Shown in pieces: positions 20,142 to 31,939 of a stretch of 35,541 nucleotides of DNA. The translations under genes were made by a program, and so were the position numbers. The notes beneath the pieces were generated by a model that worked only from the letters and a program-made list of their open reading frames with translations, did not search any database and was not told the origin of the DNA. This DNA is from Candidatus Bathyarchaeota archaeon (GTDB lineage: Archaea > Thermoproteota > Bathyarchaeia > Bathyarchaeales > Bathycorpusculaceae), in NCBI GenBank assembly GCA_003601605.1, contig PIXZ01000006.1, forward strand, positions 1 to 35,541, written 5' to 3'. How positions within the stretch are numbered: the stretch's first letter is position 1; every line of letters starts with the position of its first letter.

Positions 20142-20285
20142 TAGTAAACGCCAAGCCAATACAAACTTTCTTCATGGAAACAGAGAAATTCAAGGAAGAA
20201 ATAAGGCAAGCAGCAAGCTAAAACGGTTGAAAATGCCTTTTTTCAGAATTATTTCAGAGTTTATAATTCGATTTTTAAGGAAAAG

Positions 20286-20293
20286 TTTAAAAG
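20286..20293 (+). promoter_or_regulatory. TATA box of candidate ncRNA
   Basis: AAAAGTTTAAAAGC gives a purine-rich BRE followed by a TATA-like TTTAAAAG. Its centre is about 30 nt upstream of the beginning of the long stem at 20322, the spacing expected for an archaeal transcription start at the foot of the hairpin. Confidence 0.45.
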
Positions 20294-20317
20294 CAACATA
20301 TTACGGAATATTGAAGA

Positions 20318-20416
20318 ATGTGTGAGGGGAATGGTGGGTTAAATTTTTCTCCCTTCTCTCCTTTCTCCCCTCGTAAGCGAGTCCACCATTCTCCTCACGA
20401 ACACTTTTAGGTTTTT
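20318..20416 (+). ncRNA. Candidate structured small RNA with pyrimidine-rich loop
   Basis: A 16-bp stem forms between 20322-20337 (GTGAGGGGAATGGTGG) and 20383-20398 (CCACCATTCTCCTCAC), with only one G-U pair. The enclosed loop holds an uninterrupted 29-nt pyrimidine tract (20344-20372) overlapping a small inner hairpin CTCG-TAAG-CGAG (20370-20381). A TATA box lies at the right distance upstream, and T-runs at 20404-20407 and 20412-20416 could end the transcript. It lies in a 426-bp gene-free gap. I do not recognise an RNA family. The CU-rich loop is complementary to GGAG-type ribosome sites, so a translational role is conceivable. Confidence 0.55.
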
Positions 20417-20567
20417 GATTACTTATAGCTTGTGGAAAAATCTTCTATACAATTTGTTAAAGTTAATACTGCCCTTCTATTACCGAATTTTTCAAAGTTT
20501 TAAAAAATTATGCCTGTAAAACTTAAAATATCAACAATTACAGCAGTATGCCTAGGTGGACATAGCA

Positions 20568-26302: not shown

Positions 26303-27066
26303 GAATCGAGGATGCTGCATTGAAGATACCAATCCGAGAACTAGAAAACAACCCCTATGCATCAATAATATGCTATCCAAAACTCGCTAAAACTGAATTA
26401 AGAAAACGCTTAAAGGAACTGCAGAAGTTGAAGGTTTACGCATTAGAGTTTAGCGGTGAAAAAGAGGCTTTTAACATTCCAGTTTTGGGTAAAGGATGCG
26501 TCGGCATAGTTGTCATAGCCTATGTTGACGGAGAAAAGGCGGCTTTGAAGATTCGTAGGGTTGATGCTGACCGTTTTAATATGCGGATGGAAGCGGAAAT
26601 GCTAAAAAAGGCGAACTCGGTTGGTGTTGGACCTAAGCTTTTAGGTTTTAGCAAAAACTTCCTTTTAATGCAGTATGTGGAGGGAGACCTGCTTCCAACA
26701 TGGCTTGAAAAAACGGTGGAAAAGATGCGAGTAAAAATGGTGTTGCGTGAAATTTTGGAGCAGTGCTGGCGTTTGGACATGGCGGGGTTAGACCATGGTG
26801 AATTAAGCCATGCGCCAAAACATGTGGTTGTAAATGGCGAAGACAAGCCGTTTATACTAGATTTCGAAAGTGCAAGCATTAATCGTAAGCCTTCAAATGT
26901 GACTTCCATATGCCAATTTCTCTTCATTAGCGGGCTTGTGGCTGAAAAGGTGGCTGAGAAAATCGGTGTAAGAGAAAAAAAGACAATAATTGAGGCTTTG
27001 AGAGTTTATAAGGCTGATAAGAGGCGGGAAAATTTTGAGAAAATATTGGCGGCTTGTGGTCTTTAA
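26299..27066 (+). CDS. Predicted Ser/Thr protein kinase-like (COG2112 type)
   Basis: A 255-aa protein with kinase-fold landmarks: glycine-rich loop VLGKGCVGIVVIAY, ATP-binding Lys in AALKIRR, a catalytic-loop-like GLDHGELSHAPKHVVV and a metal-binding Asp in FILDFESAS. This matches the archaeal COG2112 'predicted Ser/Thr protein kinase' family. The usual catalytic Asp (HxD) is replaced by Glu in HGEL, so phosphotransfer is uncertain. The TTG start overlaps the stop of the radical SAM gene, with GAGGGT upstream, indicating coupled translation. It may regulate or process the same substrate. Confidence 0.78.
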   Translation: MRIEDAALKIPIRELENNPYASIICYPKLAKTELRKRLKELQKLKVYALEFSGEKEAFNIPVLGKGCVGIVVIAYVDGEKAALKIRRVDADRFNMRMEAEMLKKANSVGVGPKLLGFSKNFLLMQYVEGDLLPTWLEKTVEKMRVKMVLREILEQCWRLDMAGLDHGELSHAPKHVVVNGEDKPFILDFESASINRKPSNVTSICQFLFISGLVAEKVAEKIGVREKKTIIEALRVYKADKRRENFEKILAACGL

Positions 27067-27245
27067 ACTATGTAACTTGGTTTTCTATCACGTTTATCCG
27101 TTCTTTTCAGTTTCTCAATTCCTAATTCTCTGACAAGCTGTGAAAGGTCAAGCCAAGTTTCGATTTGAAGCTGTTTTGCTACCCTCTTCTTTTCATAAAG
27201 TAGAGGAATAAAGTCTACAAATATCCATCCGAAAGCCTCGGTCAA
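27063..27245 (-). CDS. Small basic protein of unknown function
   Basis: A 60-aa protein that I do not recognise. It has a hydrophobic/aromatic N-terminus (AFGWIFVDFIPLL), a middle amphipathic region (TWLDLSQLVRELGIEKLKR) and a very basic tail. The TTG start has a strong GGGGGAG site seven bases upstream, and a TTATAAAC element lies at promoter distance, which supports a real gene. The stop overlaps that of the convergent kinase-like gene by four bases (TTAA). Confidence 0.5.
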   Translation of the reverse strand: MTEAFGWIFVDFIPLLYEKKRVAKQLQIETWLDLSQLVRELGIEKLKRTDKRDRKPSYIV

Positions 27246-27331
27246 CTCCCTTCTCCCCCTATTATAAAAACTAAACTTCGGCTGTTTATAATAGCATATG
27301 TAAAAATACGATAGAAGAAAATTCTATCAAA

Positions 27332-31821: not shown

Positions 31822-31939
31822 GGGGTAGTCGTCTAGCTTCCAGAAATCTGGGTATCTTGGTCCAGTTCTGGCTAGAGTGGTCAAGGATACCAGCCTGGGG
31901 CGCTGGCGGTCCTGGGTTCAAATCCCAGCTACCCCACCA
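31822..31939 (+). tRNA. tRNA-Pro(GGG) with D-loop intron
   Basis: After removing 39 nt the tRNA folds perfectly. The acceptor is GGGGTAG/CTACCCC and the D-arm GTCT...GGAT, with A14, G18-G19 and A21 present. Anticodon stem CCAGC/GCTGG has loop CTGGGGC (anticodon GGG). The T-arm is CTGGG-TTCAAAT-CCCAG, the discriminator is A, and CCA is encoded. Without the excision the D-arm is far too long. A D-loop intron, rather than one at position 37/38, is a noncanonical archaeal tRNA intron. Confidence 0.9.
31837..31875 (+). other. Predicted 39-nt tRNA-Pro intron in the D-loop
   Basis: The intron is bounded by a repeated CTAG, so the cut sites are ambiguous by up to four bases. The arms CCAGAA (31840-31845) and TTCTGG (31866-31871) are complementary and bring the splice sites together, as in the bulge-helix-bulge structure recognised by the archaeal splicing endonuclease. 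Confidence 0.7.

Follow-up and report, generated by a model that had tools for sequence, protein, structure and literature searches.

Does a free-standing hairpin in the DNA of an archaeon represent an RNA gene, from which strand would it be read, and what could its long pyrimidine loop be doing? The question is raised by a locus at 20286-20416 of a contig from a member of the Bathyarchaeia, uncultured sediment archaea that form a large group; the whole stretch of DNA that was analysed, 35,541 nt long, is called the window here. A preliminary description had read the locus as a complete small transcription unit of no family known to it, made of a TATA box, a stem, a loop with 29 consecutive C/U, an inner CTCG/CGAG hairpin and T-runs after the stem. 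All of these parts are present in the sequence at 20286-20416, and for the TATA box, the stem and the pyrimidine loop it is their conservation among relatives that gives decisive support. The inner hairpin (20370-20373 with 20378-20381) and the T-runs 3' of the stem can also be located, but neither is conserved among relatives. In turn, a strongly conserved 3' element at 20422-20448 had not been described. The hairpin is very probably a genuine and hitherto undescribed gene for a small RNA in Bathyarchaeia, with the following features.

20280-20293, + strand: BRE and TATA box of the small-RNA gene, GAAAAG TTTAAAAG, with TTTAAAAG itself at 20286-20293
20313-20319, + strand: predicted transcription start region, placed by the usual archaeal TATA-to-start spacing
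20322-20337, + strand: 5' arm of stem P1, supported by covariation
20344-20372, + strand: pyrimidine loop of 29 nt with the core CUCCCUUCUCUCCUUUCUCCCC, near-invariant among orthologues
20383-20398, + strand: 3' arm of stem P1, supported by covariation
20422-20448, no strand assigned: conserved 3' element CTTATAGCTTGTGGAAAAATCTTCTAT, containing the dyad TRGAA-N5-TTCYA at 20433-20447

The stem comprises 16 bp including one G-U and encloses a loop of 45 nt, inside which lies the run of 29 pyrimidines, the longest of the window (the second measures 17 nt). The hairpin folds with -35.5 kcal/mol in RNAfold (z -2.95), and 1 of 200 shuffles folds equally well. A scan of the 35.5-kb window for perfect stems of at least 11 bp with loops of 12-60 nt returned no rival hairpins; this strict scan also omits the small-RNA hairpin, because the G-U breaks its stem. 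The conserved unit runs to about 20448. At the gathering cut-off of Rfam 15 only tRNAs match in the window, and the small-RNA locus itself scores best with unrelated models, for the most part miRNA, and stays far below the cut-off. The locus thus belongs to no family in Rfam, in agreement with the preliminary description. Among the tRNAs, a weak tRNA-Pro at 31870-31936 (+), at 29.2 bits just at the cut-off and with ARAGORN support, may be a degenerate or short tRNA.

Searched as DNA, the locus has homologues in many genera within the window's family. An alignment of 19 of these sequences (A1), taken together with its flanks, shows conservation in three blocks, namely a GAAAAGTTTAAAAGCAAC box upstream, the hairpin with its CUCCCUUCUCUCCUUUCUCCCC loop, and, beyond a variable spacer, the 3' element CTTATAGCTTRTGGAANAATCTTCTAT. 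The loop core CUCUCCUUUCUCC hardly varies among orthologues. A search for compensatory changes had been proposed as a check, and it shows a stem that covaries among relatives that retain the pyrimidine loop. In P1 both sides have changed in 5 of 15 pairs, with 96.8% of cells paired; for P1 and P2 together the figures are 6 of 21 pairs and 96.7%, compared with at most 61% in slid controls for the whole structure. With a covariance model the RNA was detected in 29 genomes from 17 genera of the window's family, f1 (E<=4e-10), several copies per genome being found. Diverged copies occur in two other families of the same order, f4 and f6 (L285-L289); their stem sequence differs, in f6 completely, while fold, loop core and 3' element are kept. 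The exact loop 21-mer is present in 20 contigs among 84,980 species genomes, in archaeal records only, 18 of them named Candidatus Bathyarchaeota or Bathyarchaeia and 2 'uncultured archaeon', a distribution that by itself makes the window almost certainly bathyarchaeal. One small-RNA copy (L069, contig C11 of genome G021) carries a two-unit 3' element, lies beside a terminase-like gene and is possibly proviral.

Since a palindrome folds on both strands, the strand has to be tested separately. For this, each genus was represented by one hairpin and the outside families were added; the TATA test covered 22 aligned loci. Read on the + strand, the stem wobbles are G-U in 22 cases and A-C in 2, an A-C corresponding to a G-U on the minus strand; counted by lineage, 13 favour the + and 1 the minus strand (sign test p=0.002). 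A perfect 8/8 archaeal TATA box stands 28-39 nt before the stem in 18 of the 22 loci on the + strand and in none of them on the minus strand; shuffles match at a rate of 6%. Similar boxes are found in the window upstream of tRNA-Met and tRNA-Ser. From the wobble bias and the restriction of the TATA box to the + strand we infer that the functional product is the RNA read from the + strand, which bears the pyrimidine loop and has a predicted 5' end at 20313-20319. The idea of a complete small transcription unit is supported. The second function that had been considered for it, an RNA mimicking rRNA or the Shine-Dalgarno (SD) sequence, is disfavoured because the functional strand bears an anti-SD loop.

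The loop is not confined to this stem. Its 13-mer CTCTCCTTTCTCC was counted 69 times across 23 related genomes, compared with 2 occurrences of the reversed pattern, and exact loop copies number 1-5 per genome. Many of the 13-mer copies sit in hairpins with unrelated stems, and part of them are sRNA-like, with their own box and 3' element. As the same loop recurs with unrelated stems, the loop and not the stem is, judged by this recurrence, the working part. Hairpins with the same loop lie behind MIT-domain ATPase genes, behind MetE-like genes (L093, L112) and before fructose-bisphosphate aldolase genes (L071, L084); the latter two we take to be such genes from the starts of their proteins. The loci L107, L080, L247, L249, L252, L269, L280, L291-L293, L299 and L301 share one conserved hairpin, with the stem GGTTTGGAGA/TCTCCAAACC and a related CU loop, and in L080 and L107 it stands just behind the gene of the MIT-domain, Vps4/CdvC-like ATPase. 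In some genomes without the small RNA the ribosome site of the ATPase gene itself is GGAGAAAGGAGAGAG (L244, L292), so that the 5' and 3' parts of the ATPase mRNA could pair with each other.

What might such a loop bind? It is complementary to GGGGAGAAAGGAGAGAAGGGAG, and a complementarity to purine-rich ribosome sites had been pointed out before. It proves to be statistically specific, and it is strongest for a linked and conserved gene, for which the relevant features are as follows.

27063-27245, minus strand: gene of a 60-aa protein with a TTG start, best predicted target by duplex rank, 6.7 kb from the RNA
27246-27260, minus strand: ribosome site AGGGGGAGAAGGGAG of this gene, complementary to the loop as judged by duplex energy
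27312-27326, minus strand: dyad TAGAATTTTCTTCTA upstream of the gene, which recurs across genomes

The predicted duplex of AGGGGGAGAAGGGAG with the loop reaches -30.6 kcal/mol, the strongest among 32 window genes (mean of the other 31 -13.0, sd 5.2 kcal/mol), and 0 of 200 shuffled loops did as well at this site. The 60-aa protein (LTEAFGWIFVDFIPLLYEKK...QLQIETWLDLSQL) has no match in Pfam; its gene is present in 39 of 91 genomes of the family and, where both are on one contig, lies about 3-14 kb from the RNA. In relatives that have the RNA, 8-16 nt at the ribosome site of this gene are still complementary to the loop, with a perfect 16-nt loop match in four genomes (G036, G097, G098, G015). 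Over 24 genomes that have the RNA the complementary run averages 11.7 nt, compared with 6.3 for the reversed loop, and in 14 genomes without detected RNA it averages 8.1 nt (Mann-Whitney 2.4e-5 against the carriers, a p-value that ignores kinship and, like the others given here, is optimistic because the genomes are related); the genomes being incomplete MAGs, a lack of detection does not equal proven absence, and the start codons are predicted. Three genomes (G111, G112, G019) carry the RNA, yet their duplex is no better than with shuffled loops, and two without detected RNA (G029, G016) still have long loop matches.

Other genes point in the same direction. Among 19 genes chosen by the 3' element alone, 7 have a loop match of at least 9 nt in the 30 nt before the predicted start, compared with 19 of 507 in a background that partly came from loci fetched for the motif (Fisher 1e-5); with the reversed loop it is 0 of 19. 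In several genomes the ribosome site of TFB mRNAs is GGAGAAAGGAGA. This 12-mer outnumbers its reversal by 111 to 9 in genomes with the RNA and by 37 to 6 in those without; both counts also contain the hairpins and, for most genomes, an unrelated conserved locus. A long antisense target of the 21-nt loop was sought in the RNA's own genome, an only 80% complete MAG, and none was found with up to 3 mismatches. Part of the loop match may be ordinary SD bias, since GGAGAAAGGAGAG is a strong SD form and adjoins start codons in IMG/VR contigs. The 17-mer matches in IMG/VR mostly look like strong ribosome sites on unrelated viral contigs and lack the 3' element, and a provirus or phage origin was rejected on these grounds. 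The GGAGAAAGGAGA-bearing locus L240 was dropped as a target because it is also present where the RNA is absent. At L240:700-840 (contig C4 of the same genome) an unannotated, conserved, structured-looking region holds CCGTCATCGAGGAGAAAGGAGAAGGCTTCGAAAACGGAAA inside a GGAGGAC/GTCCTCC frame and lies near a putative cysteinyl-tRNA-synthetase-like gene. Such a locus exists about once per genome, even without the small RNA (also L250, L258, L263, L268, L273, L281, L283 and others), has no match in Rfam and may be another new ncRNA.

The 3' element connects the RNA gene with several of these genes. With one mismatch allowed, it is found in 1-11 places per genome, RNA copies included, whereas the reversed pattern gives no hit. 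At sites other than the RNA copies it stands in most cases directly beside TATA boxes, pointing into genes, most of which code for secreted or membrane proteins with signal peptides; its orientation there is opposite to that at the RNA gene. A putative secreted/membrane regulon with ATAGAAGATTNTTCCAYAA directly upstream of TATA can be collected from L163, L169, L171, L172, L175, L193, L194, L202, L210 and others. Upstream of the 60-aa gene a dyad of the TRGAA-N5-TTCYA type is present in 25 of 30 genomes, compared with 4.2% of random 120-mers (one mismatch). The element could serve as a transcription-factor site, form a hairpin of 6 bp in the RNA, or do both. Its position beside the TATA boxes of protein genes led us to drop the reading as an RNA hairpin only. 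Since the 15-bp dyad is shared by the 3' end of the RNA and the promoter regions of the putative targets, its distribution suggests a transcription-factor site, and with it one regulator, common to both. On the RNA gene the element may act as a roadblock, as an antisense promoter, or as a 6-bp hairpin in the RNA.

The main copy is embedded in a syntenic order of M24 peptidase, isochorismatase-type hydrolase, RNA, flavodoxin-type protein and thioredoxin-type protein. The RNA is not simply a leader of the flavodoxin gene, because it persists in a close relative (G005, L011) from which that gene is missing. A flavodoxin leader or riboswitch was rejected on this ground and because the flavodoxin leader has no complementarity to the loop; its duplex with the loop (-7.5 kcal/mol) is weaker than with shuffled loops.

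We propose, with a probability of roughly 0.6, that the loop of the RNA base-pairs with purine-rich ribosome sites and thereby prevents translation. Transcription from the + strand, beginning about 5 nt ahead of the stem, would yield a trans-acting small RNA, in which the stem would serve as a scaffold that keeps a long, single-stranded CU-rich loop open. This loop would form 10-17 bp with ribosome-binding sites, pairing would block 30S binding, and less translation would result. The linked 60-aa gene is the leading candidate target; the mRNAs of TFB and of several secreted proteins come second. Transcription, pairing and repressive effect are all predictions from sequence. A more doubtful extension is a two-layer switch, in which one factor at TRGAA-N5-TTCYA would activate the 60-aa and secreted-protein genes from beside their TATA boxes and, bound at the 3' end of the small-RNA gene, stop that RNA by a roadblock or an antisense transcript. 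If true, one site would couple target transcription to release from the anti-SD RNA.

Several other readings have to be weighed against pairing. The loop might be shown to an RNA-binding protein, for example of the KH, Sm or exosome type, making the RNA a sponge or an RNP scaffold and its SD match a by-product of SD bias. The nearly letter-for-letter constancy of the loop core, also in hairpins beside unrelated genes, would suit this, as would several copies per genome; we nevertheless consider it unlikely, because complementarity in the genes with the 3' element and in the 60-aa gene is enriched beyond reversed and shuffled loops. On the opposite strand, the 3' element and a TATA-like CTATAAG could form a promoter for a transcript whose purine-rich, SD-like loop acts as a decoy of the regulon leaders. 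Orientation and spacing of the element are indeed those of the secreted-protein promoters, whose leader motif the loop would carry. Such a transcript is disfavoured by the wobble count of 22 to 2 and by a canonical TATA box on the + strand only; moreover, in L062 and L072 the + box is retained although the element is missing, and at other loci the CU loops have the same sense as the flanking genes, all of which makes the decoy very unlikely.

A termination or 3'-processing signal, its CU tract read by the archaeal termination factor aCPSF1/FttA, is less likely still. Some hairpins with the same loop do stand just behind genes (MIT-domain ATPase, MetE-like), but 1-5 exact loop copies per genome are far too few for a general signal, and the main copy, with a promoter of its own, is separated from the upstream gene by about 180 nt. 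The multiple copies, one of them beside phage-type genes (L069), could finally also fit a palindromic mobile or DNA-level element, MITE-like and without RNA function; with a main copy that is syntenic across genera, and with compensatory changes and a G-U bias that are RNA-level signals, we regard this as extremely improbable.

Pairing of a CU-rich loop with ribosome sites has precedents. In the open literature we searched, no small regulatory RNA was described for Bathyarchaeia, nor was this RNA; the anti-SD logic is known from bacterial sRNAs, and what is new is the RNA family and its wiring. Among archaea, sRNA162 of Methanosarcina mazei masks a ribosome-binding site (PMC3510493). Masking of this kind is predicted for the bathyarchaeal RNA from its specific complementarity; the methanogen RNA pairs via an unstructured linker, whereas here pairing would occur via a presented loop. 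LhrC1-5 of Listeria and other Firmicutes sRNAs with a UCCC motif are multicopy RNAs whose CU-rich single-stranded sites bind the SD region and block translation (PMC4132741). The bathyarchaeal RNA is likewise multicopy with CU-rich single-stranded sites and follows a similar logic, with pairing that is so far predicted; LhrC is bacterial, has three short redundant sites and a validated target, lapB, and no homology is indicated. Similarly, the alpha-r14 sRNAs of rhizobia (NfeR1 and relatives) hold an ultraconserved anti-Shine-Dalgarno motif unpaired in hairpins with very different stems (PMC10746234). A constant anti-SD loop on divergent stems is common to both, as a working principle and not as homology: alpha-r14 RNAs are defined by CCUCCUCCC in three hairpins, while the archaeal RNA has one main hairpin with a 29-nt CUCCCUUCUCUCCUUUCUCCCC tract, no CCUCCUCCC, and a shared 3' dyad. 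At this locus the control of translation by an RNA could be put to a direct test in a deep archaeal lineage, where it would have arisen convergently to the LhrC and alpha-r14 systems of bacteria.
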